In this document: one piece after another, positions 20,475 through 35,024 of the stretch
How the letters are laid out: every line of letters starts with the position of its first letter
How positions within the stretch are numbered: the stretch's first letter is position 1
Source: Candidatus Parcubacteria bacterium
Lineage (GTDB): Bacteria > Patescibacteriota > Minisyncoccia > Minisyncoccales > JAGOPM01
DNA length: 36,149 nt
Reading direction: 5' to 3'
Assembly (NCBI GenBank): GCA_017991975.1
Contig: JAGOPM010000004.1
Span: 1-36,149, forward strand
Made by a program: the position numbers and the translations under genes
Notes under the pieces: model-generated
What the model was told of the DNA's origin: nothing
What the model saw: the letters and a program-made list of their open reading frames with translations, nothing else
The model's database searches: none

Positions 20475-21168
20475 ATGAAAATTACAAAATCTCAAAGTTT
20501 AATAATTACAATTCTTCTTTTGCTTGTTGTGTATTTTGTTTATACAAACAAGCCACAGAGTAATTTGCAAACTTATAAAAATACTGATTACAATTTTACA
20601 ATCAGCTATCCAAAGAATTTAACGCCAGAATTTACTTTTAAAACTTATCCTTATTATTTATCTTTATTAGATATTGAGCCCTCCTATCCTTATTTATTAG
20701 ATGGTTGGAGAACTGATGCAATTCCTCAAACTAAAGGGAAGGGGATAATAACCATCCCAATATATGGCTTCGTGCAAGAGAATGCTTATAATAATGTTTA
20801 TAAAAATCCAAATTTTAGCCATGTCTATATTAGGAGCTAGCTCAGATCCAAGAGATGTTGCAAATTGTTATAATCCAAATTATGGATATGAATCATATGA
20901 ACCGACTACTACCACAGAAACTATAAACGGCATAGAATTTAGAAAATTTCATTTTGGTGGGAGAACTCTTCATGATTATTTAAGCGGTAACAGTTTTAGG
21001 GTAGTTCATAACAACATTTGCTATGCAATAGAACAAATTGAAACAGGAAGTCAGGGTTTGCCAGGAATTGAAGAATTGAGCAAAAAAAGCATTACTGTTG
21101 GAAATGCTTTAGCAGAGTTTTATGACCAAACATCTGATATAATAAAAACATTCAAATTTACTAAATAA
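20475..21168 (+). pseudogene. Membrane-anchored secreted protein, split by a +1 frameshift
   Basis: Two overlapping frames look like halves of one protein. The first (20475-20840) starts with an N-terminal anchor (KSQSLIITILLLLVVYFVY), then a TDYNFTISYPKNLTPEF domain common in small lipid- or membrane-anchored proteins of this type, and ends NFSHVYIRS. The second frame (mod +1, open to 21168) continues with SSDPRDVANCYNPNYGYE, INGIEFRKFHFGG, and a normal end FKFTK. Skipping one base near AGGAGCTAG (20832-20840) joins them seamlessly. The TAG stop sits inside the palindrome GAGCTAGCTC (20834-20843). This may be a real frameshift mutation, a one-base sequence error, or less likely a programmed shift. 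The intact protein would be about 230 residues. Function unknown. Confidence 0.7.
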
Positions 21169-21236: not shown

Positions 21237-21270
21237 AAACGGCTAAATCAATTTAGCCGTTTATTTTTTT
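21237..21270 (+). terminator. Second hairpin terminator with the same core, overlapping the elp3 end
   Basis: Arms 21237-21248 and 21251-21262 (core AACGGCTAA / TTAGCCGTT) are followed by a T run to 21270. The right half lies within the last codons of elp3 on the other strand. It shares its arm sequence with the hairpin 20 bases upstream, making a tandem pair. Confidence 0.8.
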
Positions 21271-22812
21271 GACCATATAAGTATCTTTTAGCTTATATCC
21301 TAATTTTTTGTAATATTCTCTTGTTCCTACTGAAGATATTATTGCCATTCCTTTTTTCCCTGATTTTTTTGCGATATTTTCAGCTTCTTTAATAAGCTTT
21401 TTTCCTAATCCTTTATGTTGGACTGCCAGTTTGTTTTTTTTGTCGATTTGGGTTTGCAGTCCGAAAGTGTGCACATCTCTTATGAGGGCGCAATTTTGCA
21501 GCGTTTTAATATAATGCTTTTTATTATCTGCAATTCTTAAGCGAAGCATTGAATATAATTTTTCTTGATCTTCACTTTCAAAAGTAAGCAATATTTCTTG
21601 TCCATTTGAAGCAATATAATCGTATCTGAAAAATTTAGGTTTGCTGTTTTGTTTTATTCCTCTGATTTCTCTGCATCTTATGCATTTGCATTTTAATCCT
21701 TCTTTTTCCATCAGATTAGAAACTAATTGACGCATGTTGGTTGTCTGACCTGCCAGGTTTTGCGCATATTCTGCTGGTATGTCTCGAATAATCCTTTCAA
21801 TCCTTACATAGGGCGGAACTATTTTTTTTATCTCAATAATCAAGTCGATTAATTCTTGAGCGGTATATTCTTTGAACTTTATTTTATCTTTTATTTTGTA
21901 AAGTTCAGCTTCTTTTAATAGAACTAAAGGATAAATTTTTAGATAATCAGGGCAAAAATCTTGATTTGAAAAAATTTCTTTAAACATTTCTAAATCTCTT
22001 TGCGGATTGGAGCAGGGGAGGTTTGGCATCATTTGATAGGAAACTTTAAATCCAGCGTCTTTTAATAATTTTGTAGCATTGATGATATCTTGTCTTGTGC
22101 TTTTGCGTCTGGAGAATTCTAAAACATCGTCATAAATAGATTGAATGCCTAATTCGATTTTTGTTATTCCCAATTCGCGCAAAAATTTTATTTCTTTTGC
22201 GTTTATATAGTCTGGTCTTGTTTCAATAGATAATCCAACAATTCTATGCTTTGCTATCTGATTTTTCTTTTGCGCTAATTCTAAAGTTTTGGAAATATTA
22301 CCGTTGCAAGCATCAAAACAATTTTTGATAAATGTCTTTCTATATATAGAAGGATAATACGACCAGGTGCCACCAATTATTCTTAATTCAATTTTATCTG
22401 TTGGATGCCCTTCTTTATGTAAAGATTCTAATCGAGTTTTGATTTGAACGAATGGATCGAATTTTAGCATTTTAGCGCGCTGAGCGGCCGGTTCTTTTGA
22501 TAAATAGCTTTTAGGCATTCCAGCTTCTGTTGGGCAGTAAATACAATTACCAGGGCAAGCGTAAGGTTTGGTTAAAGCTGAAACATTAACAATACCTGAA
22601 AGCGAACGCACAGGTCTGGTTTTTAAAGCATTTTCAATAATGAGATTTCTTTTGTTGGGGTAATAATTATGGTAAGCTTTAAGTAGATCAAAATTAGAAG
22701 GTGAAGATATGCCGTATTTTTTAGCGATTGAACGCTTAAAAGCGGCTAAAGACTTTTGGTCTTTTACCTTTGATTTTATCAGTGTTTGTATTATTTCTTT
22801 TGAGATATGCAT
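21253..22812 (-). CDS. elp3: Elp3-family tRNA wobble-uridine modification enzyme (radical SAM + GNAT)
   Basis: Elp3 makes the cm5U-type side chain on wobble U34 of tRNA, using a radical SAM domain and an acetyl-CoA-binding GNAT domain. Of 519 residues, the N-terminal helical part is followed by TKPYACPGNCIYCPTEAGMP with the iron-sulfur Cys at 86, 90 and 93 (CX3CX2C, the bacterial form). GGTWSYYP, GLSIETRPDYI, ELGIQSIYDDVL and MMPNLPCSNPQRD come next. The GNAT domain ends QHKGLGKKLIKEAENIAKKSG and TREYYKKLGY. A TTG start at 22827 is possible, but the ATG at 22812 fits better. It is head-to-head with a Trm9-like methyltransferase; their start codons share the palindrome ATGCAT (22807-22812). 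No other Elongator subunits are present, as usual in bacteria. Confidence 0.93.
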   Translation of the reverse strand: MHISKEIIQTLIKSKVKDQKSLAAFKRSIAKKYGISSPSNFDLLKAYHNYYPNKRNLIIENALKTRPVRSLSGIVNVSALTKPYACPGNCIYCPTEAGMPKSYLSKEPAAQRAKMLKFDPFVQIKTRLESLHKEGHPTDKIELRIIGGTWSYYPSIYRKTFIKNCFDACNGNISKTLELAQKKNQIAKHRIVGLSIETRPDYINAKEIKFLRELGITKIELGIQSIYDDVLEFSRRKSTRQDIINATKLLKDAGFKVSYQMMPNLPCSNPQRDLEMFKEIFSNQDFCPDYLKIYPLVLLKEAELYKIKDKIKFKEYTAQELIDLIIEIKKIVPPYVRIERIIRDIPAEYAQNLAGQTTNMRQLVSNLMEKEGLKCKCIRCREIRGIKQNSKPKFFRYDYIASNGQEILLTFESEDQEKLYSMLRLRIADNKKHYIKTLQNCALIRDVHTFGLQTQIDKKNKLAVQHKGLGKKLIKEAENIAKKSGKKGMAIISSVGTREYYKKLGYKLKDTYMVKKING

Positions 22813-23511
22813 GATAAATATGTCCAAAAAATATTAGAGCAAACCTGTCAAGATTATAACCTAATCGCAGAGCAGTATACAAGTACCAGGTCTTATATAC
22901 CAAAGGATGTTTTGAAATTGTCTGAATATATAAATTTGGGGGATAATGTTCTTGATTCAGGGTGCGCTAACGCCAGGCTTTATCCAGTGATAAAAGAAAA
23001 AGGAGGAAAATATGTTGGTATAGATGTTTCAGAATCATTGATTGATATTTCCAAGAATCTTTATCCAGATGGAGAATTCAGAGTAATGAATTCTTTAAAT
23101 ATGGATTTTGATGATGAAACTTTTGATAAGGTTTTATCAGTTTCTGTATTGCATCATATTCCTTCTGAAAAATTAAGAAAGAAATATCTTTTGGAGATAA
23201 ATAGAGTCTTAAAGAGAGGGGGAATGGTTTTGTTGAGAGTCCAGGATTTGATATCGAATCAGAAATACAGAATGTTAATTTTAAAATATTTTTTTCTGAA
23301 ACTAATCGGTTGGAGCAAGATGGATTTTGGAGATTTGCTGATTCCTTGGAAAGATGGGCAAGGTAATATTTTAGCAGAAAGATATTTCCATTGTTTTTCA
23401 AAAAAAGAGCTTAAAGAGCTTTTTAAAAAAGCAGGTTTTGAGATTGAAAAAGTTTATTATGATGGGAAAGATCCATTTTTCAATATTTATGTTATCGCTC
23501 GAAAGCCTTGA
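22807..23511 (+). CDS. Trm9/ALKBH8-like SAM-dependent tRNA methyltransferase
   Basis: The 234-residue class I methyltransferase resembles yeast Trm9 and the ALKBH8 methyltransferase domain, which methylate cm5U34 to mcm5U34. N-terminal KYVQKILEQTCQDYN and EQYTSTRSY match the KYV-STR start of ALKBH8. Motif I is VLDSGCANARLY (residues 48-59), with Ala for the usual second Gly. VGIDVSESLIDIS, VSVLHHIPSEKLRKK, LKRGGM and a DLLIPWKDG segment (177-184) follow; the last is characteristic of the Trm9 group, as is the C-terminal RYFHCFSKKELKELF and KVYYDG. It is divergent from elp3 with start codons sharing six bases, so the pair fits a two-step wobble-uridine pathway. A general methyltransferase is the alternative; subfamily assignment is by eye. 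Confidence 0.78.
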   Translation: MHDKYVQKILEQTCQDYNLIAEQYTSTRSYIPKDVLKLSEYINLGDNVLDSGCANARLYPVIKEKGGKYVGIDVSESLIDISKNLYPDGEFRVMNSLNMDFDDETFDKVLSVSVLHHIPSEKLRKKYLLEINRVLKRGGMVLLRVQDLISNQKYRMLILKYFFLKLIGWSKMDFGDLLIPWKDGQGNILAERYFHCFSKKELKELFKKAGFEIEKVYYDGKDPFFNIYVIARKP

Positions 23512-23551: not shown

Positions 23552-24649
23552 TTAATCAGCTTTTTTTATTTTGAATTTTTTTTCAAGTTCAGTCAGACTT
23601 TCTACAATTCCGCTGTACTCAAGTTCTTCCATTCCAAGCATCGCGTTTCCAAAGAATCCCTGTTCTCTGATATCAATCGCTTTTTTGGAAGCTTTGGATC
23701 TTATTTCATCCCAAAATGGATGGTCAAAGCAATCAACCATTTCTGTAAATTTACCTTCATGGACGCATAGAGCGATGCAACTTACCATTGGAGGTCCGTC
23801 AAAAAATGATGTCGGAGAATTTACTTTAGATGGCATCAGTGGACCAATATGCGACCCGCGCATAAATCCATCGACATAAGGCGCTAATCTGAAAGGCGAT
23901 AATATTTCTCCTGTAGCGGGGAAATCTTTTTGCACTCTGACTAATGCGACAGGATCATCTTTCCCTGTATATTTCCCAGCAATGTTATGCAATCTGGTTG
24001 TGCTTACTGACGCGCATTGTTCTCCGTTAGGAGCAAATACTGATTCAATTGAATATCTTCCGGTTTCTCTTAATAAAACAGCAATGTCATATAAATCAGC
24101 AGGAGCTTTTAAATCAATATATTTATCTGCGTCTTTATATTTAACATCAACGATTCTGAATGTGAATCCTTTTTTTGCAGCAGGGGATAAAAGCAATCCT
24201 GAATTATGGAATGGATCTGCGAATCCTAAATAAAATGGTAAATTGTAAGCGCCTGGATCAGTTTTGTCAGCTAAAAAAACTAAAAATGGTTCAGCTGGTC
24301 TTTCTTGAAATTCTAATTCAGCCACTGCTGGACCAGCGCCTTTCACATTTCCAGAAAATGAATCTTTTAATAAATCCTGACCTGCTCCATAAAGACCTTG
24401 TTCTTTTGCGACTTGTGTTCCTTGCATTAATGCGTCCCAAGCAAGTTTATGGATTTCGTCGTTTCCTGTTCCTTTAGTATGCGACATTAAAATGGCGATA
24501 TCATCTCCAGTATGAAAGATATGACTGTCGATTATTAAAGGGCTTGCTTTTATGAAATCAATAACAGTTTCCAGAACTTTTGAGCTTGGTTTTATATGAC
24601 CTCCGATAGAACCAATATCTGCTTTTATTAATGAAATAGTTATTTTCAT
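23552..24649 (-). CDS. Archaeal-type bifunctional fructose-1,6-bisphosphate aldolase/phosphatase
   Basis: This class V FBPase is the gluconeogenic enzyme that both condenses triose phosphates and dephosphorylates fructose-1,6-bisphosphate to fructose-6-phosphate, with Mg ions and a Schiff-base lysine. The 365 residues have the signatures KADIGSIGGH near the N-terminus, HTGDDIAILMSH, GAGQDLLKDSFSGN, KTDPGAYNLPFYLGFADP, and YVDGFMRGSHIGPLMP. Length matches archaeal and thermophilic bacterial enzymes. It sits convergent to the methyltransferase with a shared terminator and is preceded by a promoter-operator (24674-24702) identical in design to that of inositol-phosphate synthase upstream. In fermentative CPR-like cells it may supply hexose phosphates for wall and lipid sugars; that part is inference. 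Confidence 0.95.
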   Translation of the reverse strand: MKITISLIKADIGSIGGHIKPSSKVLETVIDFIKASPLIIDSHIFHTGDDIAILMSHTKGTGNDEIHKLAWDALMQGTQVAKEQGLYGAGQDLLKDSFSGNVKGAGPAVAELEFQERPAEPFLVFLADKTDPGAYNLPFYLGFADPFHNSGLLLSPAAKKGFTFRIVDVKYKDADKYIDLKAPADLYDIAVLLRETGRYSIESVFAPNGEQCASVSTTRLHNIAGKYTGKDDPVALVRVQKDFPATGEILSPFRLAPYVDGFMRGSHIGPLMPSKVNSPTSFFDGPPMVSCIALCVHEGKFTEMVDCFDHPFWDEIRSKASKKAIDIREQGFFGNAMLGMEELEYSGIVESLTELEKKFKIKKAD

Positions 24650-24673
24650 ATTTTTATTTTATTATTTTACATC

Positions 24674-24702
24674 TATTTTACCATGGTAAAATACTCTGTC
24701 AA
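24674..24702 (-). promoter_or_regulatory. Promoter with overlapping palindromic operator, FBP aldolase/phosphatase
   Basis: On the - strand TTGACA (24702-24697), 16-base spacer, TAAAAT (24680-24675). A perfect 20-bp palindrome, TATTTTACCATGGTAAAATA (24674-24693), fills the spacer and covers the -10, so a bound repressor would block polymerase. The core TTTTAC-N4-GTAAAA recurs at 25886-25901. Confidence 0.75.
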
Positions 24703-24716
24703 TTTTGCAAGAAAAT

Positions 24717-24744
24717 AAAAAGCCGTCTTTAAAGACGGCTTTTT
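24717..24744. terminator. Terminator after inositol-phosphate synthase
   Basis: The 28-base perfect palindrome (AAAAAGCCGTCTTT and its complement) has a T-rich end on both strands. It ends the - strand inositol-phosphate synthase just upstream of the FBP promoter. Confidence 0.9.
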
Positions 24745-24749
24745 AAAAT

Positions 24750-25850
24750 TTATCTTTCTCTTTTTCCGGCAATAAATTCTTCTAACATTTCTCTAGCTTT
24801 TTCATCGGTAAATTGTTGTGGTGGATGCTTCATGAAATAGGCTGAGGCTGATAAAATCGGTCCGGCGACTTTTCTATCTAAAGCAATCTTTATAATTCTG
24901 ATTGCATCGATTATAACTCCTGCTGAATTTGGAGAATCTTCGACTGATAATCTCAATTCTATAGTTAAAGGTACATCTCCGAATTTTCTTCCTTCCATTC
25001 TTATAAAACAGATTTTATTATCCTTTAAGAAGGGGATATAGTCTGATGGACCAATATGAAGATTGTCATAACTCAATCTTTTTCCAAGTTCTGCTTCTAC
25101 TGCTTCTGTTTTTGAAAGTTTTTTAGTCTTTAATCTTTTTCTTTCAAGCATGTTTAAGAAATCTGTGTTTCCTCCAAAATTTAATTGGTATGATTTATCA
25201 ACTGTTACACCTCTTTGTTTGAATAAATGGGTTAAAACGCGATGAGTTATTGTCGCTCCGACTTGAGACTTGATGTCGTCTCCGATACATGGCAATCCCG
25301 CTTTTTCGAATTTTTTAGACCATTCAGAATCAGAAACTATGAATACAGGCATTGCATTTACGAATCCTAATCCTGCTTTCAAAGCGGCAGTGGCATAATA
25401 TTCTGTTGCTTTCTGGCTTCCGACAGGCATATAACTTACTAAAATTTGAGCTCCTGATTTTTTTAATTCAGCAGCAACGTCAACTGATTTTGCTTTGCTT
25501 GGAACAAATCTCTGTTCTTCAGGATATTCTTGCATATGATCTGCAACTCCGTCCAAAATAGGTCCCATTTGGACTTTTACTCCCATTTTAGGTATGTTTT
25601 TGCAGAAAATTGTTGTGCAGTTTGGTTTAGCAAACATTGCTTCAGAAACATCTTTGCCGACTTTTCTTTCATCAATGTCAAAAGCTGCAACGATTTCAAT
25701 ATCAGAAATTTTATAATCTCCGACAATATTGTGCATCAATCCAGGCACTAATTCGTCATCGTTTTTTATGTCTTTATAATAATAAAGCCCCTGGATAAGG
25801 CTTGAAGCGCAGTTTCCGATACCTGCGATAGCTATTTTAATTTTTTTCAT
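24750..25850 (-). CDS. ino1: Myo-inositol-1-phosphate synthase
   Basis: This enzyme converts glucose-6-phosphate to inositol-1-phosphate using NAD. The 366-residue protein has the Rossmann motif GIGNCASSLIQGLYYY, FDIDERKVGKD, SYMPVGSQKATEYYATAALK, GDDIKSQVGATITHR, NFGGNTDFLNML, and VEDSPNSAGVIIDAIRI, all in the order seen in actinobacterial and archaeal Ino1. Length is normal for this short type. It is preceded by a promoter with a palindromic site at 25885-25912 that matches the FBP gene. Divergently on the + strand lie the HhH fragment and pyruvate kinase. The product may feed inositol lipids or other inositol compounds; none of those genes is in this window. Confidence 0.94.
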   Translation of the reverse strand: MKKIKIAIAGIGNCASSLIQGLYYYKDIKNDDELVPGLMHNIVGDYKISDIEIVAAFDIDERKVGKDVSEAMFAKPNCTTIFCKNIPKMGVKVQMGPILDGVADHMQEYPEEQRFVPSKAKSVDVAAELKKSGAQILVSYMPVGSQKATEYYATAALKAGLGFVNAMPVFIVSDSEWSKKFEKAGLPCIGDDIKSQVGATITHRVLTHLFKQRGVTVDKSYQLNFGGNTDFLNMLERKRLKTKKLSKTEAVEAELGKRLSYDNLHIGPSDYIPFLKDNKICFIRMEGRKFGDVPLTIELRLSVEDSPNSAGVIIDAIRIIKIALDRKVAGPILSASAYFMKHPPQQFTDEKAREMLEEFIAGKRER

Positions 25851-28168: not shown

Positions 28169-29758
28169 ATGCATAAGAACAAAGGCGTATTTTTAGCATT
28201 AATTTTTGCGTTATTCTTTTGCGGAACATTAGCGCAGGCAGCAAAAGAAGTCCAAGACAAGCAGAAACCTGTTTTTGTCATAGGCGAGTCAAATCCGATA
28301 AGCCAAGAGCAATTAGATAATTGCTCAAACTATTATAAATTTGGAAGTATAGAGATGAATCTTTCTTTGGACAAACCTTCAGGAGTTTATGCGCCTGTTC
28401 AGGAAGTAGAAGTTAGAGGAAGCTTGAAGAATACAAATGGTTATCCTGTAAGCGCTGGGAAAGTTTTAATTAAGATTTTCCAAAAAATGAATTCTGGCGA
28501 TCTTGAGATGGATGAATTCTATCTATCTGATAAGGATAATAAACCTTTGAGCATCTCTTTATCTCAAAATGGAACACATGATTTTTCTTTCAAATATCCG
28601 GTTCCATTATGGGGGCCAGGGAAATATTATTTTGAATTGAATTATCTTTGGAATGACAAGAGAATAATTTCAAAATCTTCTCCTTTAATCTTTGATGTCT
28701 CAGGAGGCAAAACTGAAACTAGGTATTTGATTGACGCTTTCAGAGTTAAAGCTAATGATAAAAATTTTTATTCAGATAATTTAGTTGAATACAATATTTT
28801 TGAAAATGTTAAGGATTTGAATGTTGAATATTCTTTAGTGAATCCTTACACGGACAAATCAAAAATAAATGTTTTTTATAAGTTATACAAGTTGAATTAT
28901 TTTGATTCCAAAAATATTATTTCTGATCAGAGCGAGGAAATTCAGATGGACAAGGACAGCGCTAAAAAAATATCGAAAAATTTTTCGAATTTAAACCCAG
29001 GTTTTTATGTTTTAGAAATTTTTGCAAGCGGGCAGGGGATAAAGACCATCGCGAGATTTAATTTTATGATTATTGGGGAAGGAATGGGAGCAAGAATCAA
29101 TTTTGCCACGATAAATGATTTTCCGATAATTCCAAAATCTCCGGCTTTTGGGTTTGTCTGCTATAATAGTTTTTCCGAAAAATACCAATTTAATGGGAAA
29201 TTAATTTTGAAATTAAGAGATTCTTCTAATAATATAGTTTTTACCACAAGCACTGAAAGATTTTCGTCATTGCAGAATGTGGCGCTGAAAAATGATTTTT
29301 TGCTTGATAAAAAATATTCTAAGCTTTGGCTTGATATATCTTTAGTAAGCGCTGATGGTTATACAATAGATCAGACTACTTTGGAATATAATTGCGCTGA
29401 TATAAAAAATGTCGGCCAATTCCAAACATCTGTTTCAGGGTCAACGCTTAGAATAGTCGCTCAGAATAAATGCGGAGAAAAAGTTTCAGCTGATATTTTA
29501 GTTGAAGTCAAAGAAAAGGGGGGAGGGGTTATTTTTTCAGAAGCTGCTTATGGGCAGGATTTTAAGAAAAAAGTAAAGTTCCAGTCTGGCAAAGAATATG
29601 AAATAAAAGTTTCTTCTCAAGGGTTTCAAGACATTATTATTTATAAACACAGCCAAGGAAACAAAATCATTTATTTTGTTCTTGGCTTAGTGCTTTTAGG
29701 AGGATTGATTTATTTGAGCAATTATTTCAATAAAAAACAAAATAATCCTGTTGTATAA
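28169..29758 (+). CDS. Secreted protein with beta-sandwich-like domains and C-terminal membrane anchor
   Basis: The 529-residue protein has a signal peptide (about 1-25, hydrophobic GVFLALIFALFF then LAQA), a long extracellular region of beta-rich, Ig-like repeats (for example SLDKPSGVYAPVQEVEVRG around 70), and one C-terminal membrane helix (about 500-520, YFVLGLVLLGGLIYL) with a short basic tail. Few cysteines occur, in contrast to its downstream partner. No catalytic motif is visible. The next gene starts 4 bases after its stop, so the two secreted proteins form an operon. A simple reading is that this one anchors or displays the giant partner, which has no anchor of its own, but that is inference. 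I recognise no named family. Confidence 0.75.
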   Translation: MHKNKGVFLALIFALFFCGTLAQAAKEVQDKQKPVFVIGESNPISQEQLDNCSNYYKFGSIEMNLSLDKPSGVYAPVQEVEVRGSLKNTNGYPVSAGKVLIKIFQKMNSGDLEMDEFYLSDKDNKPLSISLSQNGTHDFSFKYPVPLWGPGKYYFELNYLWNDKRIISKSSPLIFDVSGGKTETRYLIDAFRVKANDKNFYSDNLVEYNIFENVKDLNVEYSLVNPYTDKSKINVFYKLYKLNYFDSKNIISDQSEEIQMDKDSAKKISKNFSNLNPGFYVLEIFASGQGIKTIARFNFMIIGEGMGARINFATINDFPIIPKSPAFGFVCYNSFSEKYQFNGKLILKLRDSSNNIVFTTSTERFSSLQNVALKNDFLLDKKYSKLWLDISLVSADGYTIDQTTLEYNCADIKNVGQFQTSVSGSTLRIVAQNKCGEKVSADILVEVKEKGGGVIFSEAAYGQDFKKKVKFQSGKEYEIKVSSQGFQDIIIYKHSQGNKIIYFVLGLVLLGGLIYLSNYFNKKQNNPVV

Positions 29759-29762
29759 GAAT

Positions 29763-32700
29763 ATGAAAAAAATATTTATATTGTTAATAATATTGTCTAC
29801 ATTATTTTTTTGGTCTAGCCCGACTTTTGCAGCCAATCCTCCGACAGTAGAAACAACTTATGCAAGTTATTCCAATGGATATATTTCTGCAGGCGGAAAA
29901 GTTACAAATGATGGAGGGAGCCAATTGACTAGCGGCTGGTTTAATTTTTATTCTGGGTCATGTTCTTCCAATGGAAATTTTTTTACTACTATATATTCTA
30001 ATGGCGCTCCACAAGTTGGATATACATTCTATATATATCAAAAACATTGCTTTCCTGCTGGAAATTATTGCGCAATAGCAGCTGCTAATTCTGTTTCAGG
30101 ATTAGGGCAGGCGAGAGCAGGAGTATCTTTTACATCAGATGGTTCTGGATGTGATTCTGGAAGTGGCCAGCAATCAATCCAAAAAAGTTATTATTATTGT
30201 CAGGATTGGTCTAATACAACTGGCCCTCAGCAAAGATGTTCTATTAGGGGCTCTTATTACTCATTAGCTGAATGTCAAAGAAGTGTAGACGCTACAACTC
30301 CTGGAAAGATTTGTTATGACAATGATAAATGCAATAATGCTTGCGACGAAAGATCAAAAACTCAATATTATTATTGTATTGATAATTCGTGCCAAATTGC
30401 AGGGCTTTATTTTAGTGATTATGAATGTACGGATACTAAGGGATCGCAGTGTTATATAAGCACTAATTGTTATGGAAAATGTTCTACATACTCTGGAGAG
30501 AATTACTGGGTTTGTGGTTCTTCTGATTATGGATGTCAATGGGCAGGGAAATTTTATTCGACAAATGATTGCGAAACGGCAAATAAAAAAACTTGTTATA
30601 AATCTTCTAATTGTTTTAATCAATGTGGTCAAGAATTTGAAGTATGTAATGATTATGGGCAATGTATCGGAACTGGGAAATTCGGATCAATTCAGGCTTG
30701 TCAGAGTTATCCTTCGAATTTGGGAAAAACTTGTTATCTGAAAGGATTGAATTGTAATAATGCTTGCAATAAGAGAATGTGGTATTGTTGGGGGAACAGT
30801 TGTGTTCAAACTGAAAAAGCTTATAAAAATATAAGTGAATGTTCTTGGGATATAGGCAAATCATGTTATTTAGATAATTCTTGCAATGGAACATGTTCAT
30901 CTGGAACTGGCACTGGCGGCACAGGAACCGGGGGAACTGGAGGTTCTGGAACTGGCACAGGAGGCACTGGCGGGACTGGAGGTGGAGGCTCTGGCACGAT
31001 ATGCAATTATAATAATCTTTGCGAAAAAAATCTTGGAGAATCATATCCAAATTGTTCGGATTGTAAACAGATGTATAGATGTGGAGGAGGGAACCAAATG
31101 CCTGGATATGGAGATTGTAATATGATAGGAGCTCCAGGAGATTTTATTGATAAAAATGATTGTTCTTATAGAAGCGGTTTTACATGTTACGATAATCCAT
31201 TTTGCGATAAGGCATGTTCAAGCGGAGGTTCTGGAACTGGCACAGGAGGCACTGGCGGGACTGGAGGTGGAGGCTCTGGTACGATATGCGATTATGATAT
31301 GATTTGCGAACCAAGCTATGGAGAAAATTCAACTAATTGCTCGGATTGCGTTTCTTCAACAGGATGTAATTATAATGGTATTTGCGAGCCCGCTCGTTTA
31401 GAAAATTCAAGCAATTGCCCAGATTGCGCTTCTACTCAAATTTGTAATTATAATGGAATTTGCGAAATATCTCGCGGAGAAAATGTATCAAACTGCCCTG
31501 ATTGTTCAGTATTGTCAACCCAAGGATACAATTGTAATAAAAGTACAGGTTTTTGCACATATGTTTCGTCAGGAGCTCAATACATGACGATTAATCAATG
31601 TATTCCGAACTGCACTAAAGATACATCAGGATATAATTGCAATATTGATGGAACATGTTCTTATGTGCTTTTTGGAGCTCAATATTCAACTCAATCACAA
31701 TGTTCGATAAATTGCCGTCCTCCAGCTGGATTAATAACTGCCAGAACTCTTGATCCAACTGAAATTACCAGGATAAGCGCAAGATTCAGAGGGGAAATAA
31801 CTAATAGAGGTGGATATTCTAATTTAGAATATTGGTTTAGGTATTACAAAGTTAGTGATGGAATATGGAAAGCTACCGGAATTTATAATGCAGGTTCATA
31901 CAATAGTTTTGGATCTTTAGTTTCTGGTTTAGAAGCCAATACTGATTATTGTTATCATATTATTGTTCAAGCAGTAGGAACAAGTATTAGAGGAGAGGGA
32001 CAACTTGTTTGTTTTAAAACTTTAGGAACTGTTACTCCTCCTGGATATAATTGTAATAATGGGTCGTGCCAAGTTTCAACAGGAGCTATTTCAGATTATC
32101 CAGATTTGCAAACATGTTCTTCGAATTGTAAAAGTGGCGCTGGTTGGAAATGTAATGATAATGGAACATGTTCTTCTGTTTCTTCTGGAGCGGAATATTC
32201 AACTCAATCTGCTTGCACTCAATATTGTAAGCCTTTGCCTACTGGATATAATTGTGTTTCAGGTAATTGCGAACCATCTTATGATTTCTTCCCTGATTAT
32301 CCAAATCAACAGACATGTTCAGCGGGATGTAAAAATTCATCAGGATGGAATTGTAGTCAAGATGGTCAATGCATATCAGTATCTTCAAATGCGCATTATT
32401 CAAACCAGAATACTTGCACTCAATATTGTAAATCAGAAATAACTGGATACAATTGCATTTTAGGAACATGTAATCCTACTTATGATTTTTTTGCTGATTA
32501 TGATACTCAGGATTCTTGTAATGCTAATTGCGTTGATAATGGAGACGCTGGTTGGATATGCAATACAAATGGAACATGCTCTTTTGTTTCTTCTGGAGGG
32601 CATTATGATTCTCAAAGCGTATGTGATCAAAATTGTGATGCTTTAACTCCTACTGGATACAATTGCATTTTAGGATCATGCAATCCGTCTTATGATTTTT

Positions 32701-35024
32701 TCCCCGACTATCCGAGTCAACAGACATGTTCAGCTAATTGCGGAACATCAGGCATTAGATGGACATGCGGAATAAACGGAATTTGCTCTCAAGTCTCTCA
32801 AGGAGGAGAATATCCTAATCAAGATACATGTAATCAATATTGCAGAATTCATCAAGAAAGTATTTTAGTTCAAACAGATCCTGCAAGCGCTGTTACTGAA
32901 ACTAGCGCGAGATTAAACGGAACTTTAATTGATAATGCGAGCAGACCAGATTTAGAATATTTTTTTAGATATCATGAAAATGGAAGTTCTACATGGATGC
33001 AAACAGATATTACTCCTATAAGCTCAGAAGGATCGATGTTCGTAAACATTTCTAATTTAAAACCAAATACAGAATATTGTTATTATGTTGCTGTTAGAAT
33101 TATTAACCAGGGAACGGAACACAGAGGTCAAGAAGTTTGTTTTACAACAAATCCTCCTGCCCAATTAGGAATTCCTATATTAATTTATCCGATTCATGAT
33201 GAAATTGTTCATACAACTTTAATTAATTTTGATTGGACTGATGTATCAGGCGCTCAAATTTATGAAATTTGGGAAATTTTTGGAAATGATGTAAGCACAG
33301 AATCTATTTATTATTCAGACAGAAGTAATTTAATAGCAGAAATTCCAGAATTGGGGAGACACTATTGGAAAGTAAGGGCTTGCAATGGTGTTAGCAATAT
33401 AAGGCCAAAATCAGGCGGATATGGAATAGAATTTGATGGAACTGCAAACTGCGGTCCATGGACAGAACAAGAATCTTTCAGAATAGCCAATAATCAAGGT
33501 ATAACTTGCACATATCAAACTACTGCAAACGGGCAGCAAGTTGATGTCCAGATGCAAATAGATATTTCTCCTTGTTCTATGAATGTTTCTTTTACTGATG
33601 CTATTGATGAAAATATAGCAATACAGCCAGGAACAAGATTGAGAATAGGAGATAGATTGATAATGAATATTAATGATCCTAATAGTGATTGGACTGTTGG
33701 AGCAAATAATACTGTAAGACATCCTGTATCATGGCTTGCTAATGCTAGAACAGCTTACACTAGTGGATCGTCAATAACTCCATCTTATCCTTTTACATGG
33801 CATTTATTTGATCAAGCTTTAGGAATTGATGAATACAGAACATTTAATGTTGGAGTTGCGGCAACTAATCCTGTCGTTCAAAATCCTGATGTTATTAATA
33901 CTTTGATAAGCGAAAATTTATCCATAACAAGGCTTAGTCCGGGAAGATATGAAATAGTTGTTTTAGGAGAAGGAACAGGAGATATTAATCTAAATATCGA
34001 TGATATTTTTTCTTACGCTACAGTTAATGGTGATGTTTGCGGAAGCGGAGCGATGCCTGGATGCTCTAGAGATTTTTCTTTTACTTTGCAAGGAACGATA
34101 CCAAGCGATGATGTCCCAGGAGATGATGATGGCACAACAACCACTACAATCCCTGGTGGAACAGATCATGTTATTACTACATCAACATGTATTAATGTAA
34201 CGATAAATAGCAATGGTGATAAAGAAATTACTAGAAATGGAAATTGCGATGGACAAATTAATGCAACAATTTATGATGTCGGTAGAGATGAAGTTTTAGA
34301 TAGAGATGCAATTTTAAGAATTGAAAATTTCATTGATGATAATGGCGTAAATACCGCTCCAACAGTTTCTAATTTGAGAAATAATAATCCTGATTGGTGT
34401 TTGACTCAGGATTATAGATTGGAATGGGATTACACTGATCCTGAAAATGATCCTCAGACAAAATATAGAATTAATATTTATGATAGCAACGGAGATTTGC
34501 TTGAAGGATTCCCTCAGGAATTTGATTCAAACTCAACAGGATACCAATTTAGTTTAGTAAACAGATATGGCCAAAATTATGAATGGGATGTTGAGGTTTG
34601 GGATCAAAGAGGACTATCAGCAAAATCTGAACGCAAACAAATAGCAAATGTTCCTGCTCATCAATATCCAAGTCCATCATTTGATTATAGTGAAGTGCAA
34701 TTAGGCGCAGATGATATTGAATATAAGATTTGGTTTGCAGATACTTCAAAATCTTATGGCGGAACTAATATTGCAAGTTATCAATGGGATTTTGATGGAG
34801 ATGGATCGTGGGATAAAGTTTTTGATAGTTCTTCGGAAATTGAAAATATGAAAAATAATCCTGAAACCCAATTGGTTTATGAATATGATTCAAATGTCTA
34901 TCAGCAAACCGTTTTGAGAACAACTGATAGCGATGGATATTCTTGCGAATATTCTCAAAGTATTGTTCCTGAAGATTTTAAATACGAAGATTCTCCGGTT
35001 GAAAATTTAAATTTGAATCCTTAA
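29763..35024 (+). CDS. Giant secreted Cys-rich repeat protein with FN3-like and PKD-like domains
   Basis: The 1753-residue surface protein starts at the ATG at 29763 (the TTG at 29751 is less likely), with signal peptide MKKIFILLIILSTLFFW. Order by residue: Ig-like domain (about 25-125); about six copies of a 40-residue, six-Cys repeat (CYxxxxCNxxC endings); Gly/Thr linker (380-410); Cys repeats of the CNYNGICEP-GEN-NCPDC type, four copies in all; a second Gly/Thr linker (488-508); two 28-residue repeat types alternating to about 1033 (six GWxC-GTC-SSGAxYSxQ and four GYNC-GxC-YDFFPDY), interrupted by an FN3-like domain at 657-757; a second FN3-like domain (1035-1133); beta domains; and a PKD-like domain near the end (SYQWDFDGDGSWD). 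No membrane helix, LPxTG or autotransporter follows. Many disulfides are expected. It probably acts in attachment to a host or surface. Confidence 0.85.
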   Translation: MKKIFILLIILSTLFFWSSPTFAANPPTVETTYASYSNGYISAGGKVTNDGGSQLTSGWFNFYSGSCSSNGNFFTTIYSNGAPQVGYTFYIYQKHCFPAGNYCAIAAANSVSGLGQARAGVSFTSDGSGCDSGSGQQSIQKSYYYCQDWSNTTGPQQRCSIRGSYYSLAECQRSVDATTPGKICYDNDKCNNACDERSKTQYYYCIDNSCQIAGLYFSDYECTDTKGSQCYISTNCYGKCSTYSGENYWVCGSSDYGCQWAGKFYSTNDCETANKKTCYKSSNCFNQCGQEFEVCNDYGQCIGTGKFGSIQACQSYPSNLGKTCYLKGLNCNNACNKRMWYCWGNSCVQTEKAYKNISECSWDIGKSCYLDNSCNGTCSSGTGTGGTGTGGTGGSGTGTGGTGGTGGGGSGTICNYNNLCEKNLGESYPNCSDCKQMYRCGGGNQMPGYGDCNMIGAPGDFIDKNDCSYRSGFTCYDNPFCDKACSSGGSGTGTGGTGGTGGGGSGTICDYDMICEPSYGENSTNCSDCVSSTGCNYNGICEPARLENSSNCPDCASTQICNYNGICEISRGENVSNCPDCSVLSTQGYNCNKSTGFCTYVSSGAQYMTINQCIPNCTKDTSGYNCNIDGTCSYVLFGAQYSTQSQCSINCRPPAGLITARTLDPTEITRISARFRGEITNRGGYSNLEYWFRYYKVSDGIWKATGIYNAGSYNSFGSLVSGLEANTDYCYHIIVQAVGTSIRGEGQLVCFKTLGTVTPPGYNCNNGSCQVSTGAISDYPDLQTCSSNCKSGAGWKCNDNGTCSSVSSGAEYSTQSACTQYCKPLPTGYNCVSGNCEPSYDFFPDYPNQQTCSAGCKNSSGWNCSQDGQCISVSSNAHYSNQNTCTQYCKSEITGYNCILGTCNPTYDFFADYDTQDSCNANCVDNGDAGWICNTNGTCSFVSSGGHYDSQSVCDQNCDALTPTGYNCILGSCNPSYDFFPDYPSQQTCSANCGTSGIRWTCGINGICSQVSQGGEYPNQDTCNQYCRIHQESILVQTDPASAVTETSARLNGTLIDNASRPDLEYFFRYHENGSSTWMQTDITPISSEGSMFVNISNLKPNTEYCYYVAVRIINQGTEHRGQEVCFTTNPPAQLGIPILIYPIHDEIVHTTLINFDWTDVSGAQIYEIWEIFGNDVSTESIYYSDRSNLIAEIPELGRHYWKVRACNGVSNIRPKSGGYGIEFDGTANCGPWTEQESFRIANNQGITCTYQTTANGQQVDVQMQIDISPCSMNVSFTDAIDENIAIQPGTRLRIGDRLIMNINDPNSDWTVGANNTVRHPVSWLANARTAYTSGSSITPSYPFTWHLFDQALGIDEYRTFNVGVAATNPVVQNPDVINTLISENLSITRLSPGRYEIVVLGEGTGDINLNIDDIFSYATVNGDVCGSGAMPGCSRDFSFTLQGTIPSDDVPGDDDGTTTTTIPGGTDHVITTSTCINVTINSNGDKEITRNGNCDGQINATIYDVGRDEVLDRDAILRIENFIDDNGVNTAPTVSNLRNNNPDWCLTQDYRLEWDYTDPENDPQTKYRINIYDSNGDLLEGFPQEFDSNSTGYQFSLVNRYGQNYEWDVEVWDQRGLSAKSERKQIANVPAHQYPSPSFDYSEVQLGADDIEYKIWFADTSKSYGGTNIASYQWDFDGDGSWDKVFDSSSEIENMKNNPETQLVYEYDSNVYQQTVLRTTDSDGYSCEYSQSIVPEDFKYEDSPVENLNLNP
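30939..31289 (+). repeat. Pair of 66-base direct repeats coding for Gly/Thr-rich linkers
   Basis: Copies at 30939-31004 and 31224-31289 are identical except for one base (C at 30995, T at 31280). They encode the GGSGTGTGGTGGTGGGGSG-type linker followed by the start of a CNYN-type Cys repeat. The composition is far more GC-rich than the surrounding gene. Such near identity suggests a recent duplication or gene conversion and a site for length change. Confidence 0.9.

Follow-up and report, generated by a model that had tools for sequence, protein, structure and literature searches.

Archaea such as Haloferax carry Elp3 together with Trm9-Trm112, and an elp3-trm9 cluster has been noted in Sulfolobus (PMC2584109, PMC5372719); the archaeal Elp3/Trm9 version also appears in a later review (PMC7694415, citing van Tran 2018). 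As for bacteria, a 2017 review stated that genes similar to those of the Trm112-dependent methyltransferases were undetectable in them (PMC5372719), and in a 2020 review cm5U and mcm5U are credited to eukaryotes and archaea, not to bacteria (PMC7694415). Searches of the open-access literature turned up no report of a bacterial Trm9, and no paper on Elp3 or U34 modification in CPR/Patescibacteria; papers beyond open access could exist.

In this work, we analyzed a stretch of 36,149 nucleotides (the window) from a Candidatus Parcubacteria bacterium, in which an elp3 gene and a methyltransferase gene lie head-to-head.

21253 to 22812, minus strand: elp3, predicted radical SAM/GNAT tRNA uridine-34 carboxymethylase, 519 aa (TIGR01211, 528.6 bits)
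22807 to 23511, plus strand: predicted Trm9-like tRNA (cm5U34) carboxyl-methyltransferase, 234 aa (PDB and profile matches, AlphaFold2 model)
22807 to 22812, no strand: ATGCAT, interlocked start codons of the divergent elp3 and methyltransferase genes (direct reading)

Both open reading frames were found where an earlier, sequence-only reading had located them, and the three methyltransferase segments that it quoted are present: KYV..STR (residues 4-28), DLLIPWK (176-182) and RYFHCFSKKEL (192-202). Direct reading likewise verified the six-base start palindrome that it had described, each half of ATGCAT being the ATG of one of the two genes. Translated from this ATG, Elp3 has 519 aa; the mechanical ORF list runs further, to a TTG at 22827. 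We propose, with a probability of about 0.8, that the two genes constitute a Trm112-independent bacterial mcm5(s2)U34 pathway, whose product is inferred without nucleoside data.

The identity of Elp3 is clear from its full-length match to TIGR01211 (cut-off 350 bits, model positions 1-522 of 522) and from its match in the PDB to archaeal Elp3 (6ia8, E=8e-126). The closest solved structures carry Elp3-family labels and correspond to archaeal MinElp3 and bacterial DmcElp3 (PMC6367351). The residues of the iron-sulfur cluster are as follows.

22534 to 22557, minus strand: [4Fe-4S] cysteines C86, C90 and C93 of Elp3 (CX3CX2C), spacing kept in 54/54 Elp3 sequences of the order

The zinc cysteines (CxCxxC) of bacterial and archaeal Elp3 were also found in 54/54 sequences of the order, and the acetyl-CoA motif Q-H-x-G-L-G in 48/54, some loci being cut. 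As the radical SAM cysteines, the zinc cysteines and, in most cases, the acetyl-CoA motif are conserved, the window Elp3 should be an active enzyme; that it forms cm5U34 is an inference from its sequence. The CX3CX2C cluster loop of CPR Elp3 is one residue shorter than the CX4CX2C loop of archaeal 6ia8, the top match in the PDB.

For the methyltransferase (METHYLTRANSFERASE), Pfam and NCBIfam searches retrieved generic methyltransferase families only and did not resolve the family, and the single window sequence found Trm9 in the PDB only as third match. The sequence profile of the window family, however, was nearer to Trm9 than to other class-I methyltransferases: (i) a profile restricted to bacterial members retrieved Yarrowia Trm9 (5cm2) first among PDB chains, at 6.3e-29, with the next chain at 5.2e-23, (ii) the bacterial profile aligned with archaeal Trm9-like proteins with an hhalign E value of 6e-59, and (iii) a profile of archaeal Trm9-like proteins alone gave 140.5 bits to the window protein, 129 to Yarrowia Trm9 and at most 93 to outgroup methyltransferases. 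Foldseek, run on an AlphaFold2 model with a pLDDT of 96.8, placed Trm9 at rank 2; a fold search was rejected as sole proof of identity, as many class-I methyltransferases score equally well. In the tree, Yarrowia Trm9, truncated at both ends and the sole eukaryotic sequence, joined the archaeal proteins (99), and that group stood beside the bacterial family (90). The bacterial proteins formed a group of their own, away from E. coli UbiE, UbiG, BioC, CmoA, CmoB and CmoM and from other CPR methyltransferases. The deep branch separating the bacterial and archaeal/eukaryotic Trm9 proteins from other methyltransferases was weak (SH-aLRT 55). An identity as CmoM was also considered and rejected, E. 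coli CmoM lying among the outgroups and not with the window family.

The case for Trm9-likeness rests more on the conserved active site than on the tree. Mutation of R29, H115, R241, Y243 or N271 in yeast Trm9 lowers tRNA affinity and activity, and Trm9 has a two-stranded lid (PMC5372719). The window protein has R28, H116, R192, F194 (Y to F) and N226 at the equivalent positions, all on the plus strand.

22888 to 22890, plus strand: R28, yeast Trm9 R29 (tRNA binding/catalysis), R in 110/110 bacterial members
23152 to 23154, plus strand: H116, yeast Trm9 H115, H in 102/110 bacterial members
23257 to 23304, plus strand: helical insert, residues ~151-166, between the W146 strand and the lid (model, length comparison)
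23332 to 23391, plus strand: predicted lid hairpin DLLIPWK...RYFH, including R192 (yeast R241) and F194 (yeast Y243) (model strands, conservation)
23482 to 23484, plus strand: N226, yeast Trm9 N271, N in 97/110 bacterial members

Residues were mapped through an alignment with Yarrowia Trm9, and the yeast numbers given to the mapped positions rest on a yeast Trm9 sequence that we take to be correct. At least four of the five residues occurred in 103 of 110 bacterial members and in none of 25 outgroup methyltransferases, with Y or F accepted at position 194. The position of yeast Y243 is Y in 55, F in 20 and V in 18 of the 110 members; at position 226, N is not among the common residues of the outgroup methyltransferases. 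In the model, strands 176-182 and 188-195 form a hairpin at the place of the Trm9 active-site lid. Between positions 146 and 176 most CPR members have 28-29 residues, compared with 17 in Yarrowia and 14-25 in archaeal members. Residue 146 itself (23242-23244) is Q in the window and W in 108/110 members. With profiles, residues and tree (deep branch 55) giving no grouping with unrelated SAM enzymes, the Trm9-like identity advanced by the sequence-only reading held, and assignment of 22807-23511 to the Trm9/ALKBH8-type methyltransferases is supported at the level of sequence; a cm5U to mcm5U activity is inferred.

We then compared the pair across genomes. Of 60 genomes from the window's order, both genes were present in 40, Elp3 alone in 5, the methyltransferase alone in 1 (in this genome the gene lies at a contig edge) and neither gene in 14; among the 39 pairs on the same contig, 36 were head-to-head within 250 nt. 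When 192 Patescibacteria (CPR) genomes were examined, Elp3 was found in 71 and the methyltransferase in 52, all 52 within the 71, and 41 of 47 same-contig pairs were head-to-head within the same distance. The methyltransferase cut-off used for the phylum, 112 bits, was picked after the scores were seen, but the outcome did not change with the 49 matches left by a stricter cut of 150 bits, so the result is not an effect of the cut-off. Two low-scoring matches of the 52 (G110 and G126) fell among the outgroups in the tree and cannot be firmly counted, and none of these counts is corrected for relatedness. In a genome scan, Chloroflexota, Ignavibacteriales and Fermentibacteria also had the pair in divergent orientation, and Thermoproteota had it co-directionally. 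Elp3 was present in 21 of 26 further genomes bearing the family and was not found in four family-bearing MAGs of unknown completeness (L082, L093, L098 and L119). L140, a candidate for a fifth exception, was discarded, as the tree places its protein outside the family. The pairing that the sequence-only reading had seen at a single locus is hence conserved in other genomes, and across the CPR the methyltransferase co-occurs with Elp3.

The contact between the start codons is conserved as well. The gap between starts was -6 to +3 nt in 28 of the 36 pairs measured in the order, where the typical junctions are CATG and CATATG, the window having ATGCAT. When a single mechanical rule was used throughout the CPR contigs, a gap of at most 10 nt was found in 26/39 Elp3/methyltransferase pairs and in 0/26 of the other divergent gene pairs of the same contigs, which served as control (P = 9e-9, a nominal value only, as the genomes are related). 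Pairing and start contact exceed chance. Since no intergenic space is left, the promoters must lie inside the coding sequence of the other gene, or the mRNAs are leaderless or nearly so; with overlapping head-to-head starts each promoter would lie within or at the first codons of the other gene, and expression of the two would probably be coupled. The earlier expectation that expression should be closely tied is thus plausible but weakly tested: in a scan for -10-like elements, scores 5' of the methyltransferase were marginally higher than in the control (P=0.04), whereas the elp3 side showed no excess over control (P=0.3), and with so weak and one-sided a signal a promoter claim was dropped.

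In the pathway that we propose, Elp3 would use acetyl-CoA and radical SAM chemistry to carboxymethylate U34 at C5, giving cm5U, and the Trm9-like enzyme would esterify the cm5U carboxylate with SAM to yield mcm5U34. The window's own genome also encodes the 2-thiolase MnmA, which could add a 2-thio group, leading to mcm5s2U34. The targets can only be inferred; likely ones are the U34 tRNAs that read NNA codons, namely Lys UUU, Glu UUC, Gln UUG, Arg UCU, Gly UCC and perhaps Ile UAU. Genes for U34 tRNAs of Lys, Glu, Gln, Arg and Gly occur alongside those for C34 isoacceptors. The Elp3/Trm9-like pathway would occupy the place that MnmE-MnmG has in most bacteria: MnmG exceeded its cut-off in 0/60 genomes of the order and in 4/192 CPR genomes, none of these four with Elp3. 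More than half of the 192 CPR genomes show neither of the known C5-U34 entry enzymes (MnmG in 4, Elp3 in about 70).

AUA is apparently read in the window's own genome by a tRNA-Ile(UAU) (G000:C33:23770-23842), and the only two CAU tRNAs found in this genome were both called Met. U34 modification may matter for the discrimination between AUA and AUG. Lysidine synthase (TilS) was considered as a link to tRNA-Ile(UAU) and the pathway and rejected; it exceeded its cut-off in 0/60 genomes of the order, so that it stays below the cut-off whatever the Elp3 state and offers no contrast.

Trm112 is the partner of the characterised Trm9 enzymes and not a trait of the protein itself, hence our label "Trm9-like". 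No match to PF03966 was found in the window's own genome, and none in any CPR genome reached through the loci; in the order, only 3/60 genomes gave a match over the cut-off, in ORFs of about 300 aa or more. The CPR enzyme therefore seems to work without Trm112, although this remains an inference. These same absences weigh against a variant of our reading, not exclusive of it, in which a Trm112-like partner is still needed but has diverged beyond the reach of the Pfam profile. That profile is short (40 positions) and the genome only about 86% complete; moreover, a Trm112 match accompanies most archaeal members and some of the other bacteria carrying the pair. We regard a hidden partner as unlikely, but as a possibility to be kept in mind. 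Whether the longer helical insert of the CPR enzymes substitutes for Trm112 is only a guess.

Some lineages have a further gene. At ten loci from Peregrinibacteria, Gracilibacteria and relatives, the methyltransferase is tied to a GT26 glycosyltransferase (WecG/TagA/CpsF, PF03808).

L118:5672-6496, L123:5705-6463, L125:5684-6472, L104, L093, L112 and L098: unfused GT26 genes
L128:5001-6521, L135:4953-6533 and L139:18-1616: GT26-methyltransferase fusions

In six of the ten, the GT26 gene could start within the methyltransferase stop codon (an ATGA-type overlap of 4 nt); in L098 it lies just downstream of the methyltransferase. Elp3 is still divergent upstream in L118, L123, L125 and L128, and the GT26-linked methyltransferases largely retain the Trm9 residues. 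GT26 may glycosylate the modified wobble uridine; we know of no tRNA nucleoside of that sort. It is tempting to imagine a long-standing, Trm112-free bacterial Elongator/Trm9 pathway, regulated through its interlocked starts and extended in Peregrinibacteria, Gracilibacteria and their kin by a GT26 enzyme that adds a sugar to the wobble uridine, but as a whole we hold this scenario to be doubtful.

The same glycosyltransferase, coupled or fused in some lineages, hints at further steps and so lends some weight to another explanation, namely that the substrate of the Trm9-fold enzyme is another Elp3-derived or wobble product, such as cmo5U in the manner of CmoM or a further-modified cm5U, and that the final base is not mcm5U. 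The variation at the yeast Y243 position points the same way. On the other hand, the family keeps the remaining catalytic positions of Trm9, E. coli CmoM and CmoB sit with the outgroups, and cmo5U needs no Elp3, yet the methyltransferase tracks Elp3; we therefore consider a different final base improbable. A generic small-molecule or protein methyltransferase, lying beside elp3 by chance in a compact genome, would fit the exclusively generic Pfam/NCBIfam assignments and the many class-I folds that resemble the model no less than Trm9 does, but it was already disfavoured and is hardly tenable given a pairing kept across dozens of families and several phyla, the absence of the enzyme from CPR genomes without Elp3 and the presence of Trm9-specific residues.

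Elsewhere in the window, the ORFs 20475-20840 and 20764-21168 overlap in different frames and resemble a single frameshifted gene, a pseudogene or an assembly error. Adjoining the pair, 23552-25850 on the minus strand encodes an archaeal-type fructose-1,6-bisphosphatase (FBPase_3, PF01950, 505 bits) and a myo-inositol-1-phosphate synthase (PF01658). Further on, 28169-35024 holds two overlapping ORFs, possibly for surface proteins: the first, of 529 aa, has no Pfam match, and the next, of 1757 aa, only a weak Ig-like one.

Altogether, recurrence of the pair across candidate phyla suggests that two proteins make mcm5U, a mark listed as absent from bacteria. The pathway had been presented in the sequence-only reading as a two-gene bacterial version of one usually considered eukaryotic; our results support the bacterial pair, but the pathway is not only eukaryotic, as an archaeal version is known. 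Three features seem to be new: that the pair occurs in bacteria, that it lacks Trm112 and that its starts are interlocked, an unusual gene layout that is conserved. A two-protein version in organisms that lack MnmG would explain how many CPR bacteria can modify U34, would give a simple system in which Elongator chemistry could be studied free of Elp1-6, Trm112 and accessory factors, and would be relevant to the question of whether Elongator/Trm9 predates the archaeal-eukaryotic lineage.

Several known systems can be set beside this one. The Elp3 of Dehalococcoides mccartyi (DmcElp3) is also bacterial and has been studied biochemically; it lacks the N-terminal extension, and no mention of a methyltransferase partner was found for it (PMC6367351). 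MnmE-MnmG, which forms cmnm5U34, likewise modifies C5 of U34 in tRNAs reading NNA/NNG codons, but with unrelated enzymes and a different side chain, and MnmG is missing in the whole order. The archaeal Elp3 and Trm9-Trm112 system shares with the window a stand-alone Elp3 beside a Trm9-like gene and matching methyltransferase profiles, whereas most archaeal members come with Trm112, the linkage in Thermoproteota is co-directional and the bacterial proteins form their own group in the tree. With eukaryotic Elongator and Trm9-Trm112/ALKBH8, which in yeast and humans form mcm5(s2)U34, a methyl ester on the tRNA wobble base, the common elements are the Elp3 catalytic subunit, the Trm9-type active-site residues and the lid. 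The bacterial Elp3, in contrast, seemingly stands alone (Elp1, 2 and 4-6 were outside the search), no Trm112 was found with it, the candidate thiolase is bacterial MnmA instead of Ncs6/Urm1, and the bacterial version consists of two adjacent divergent genes.
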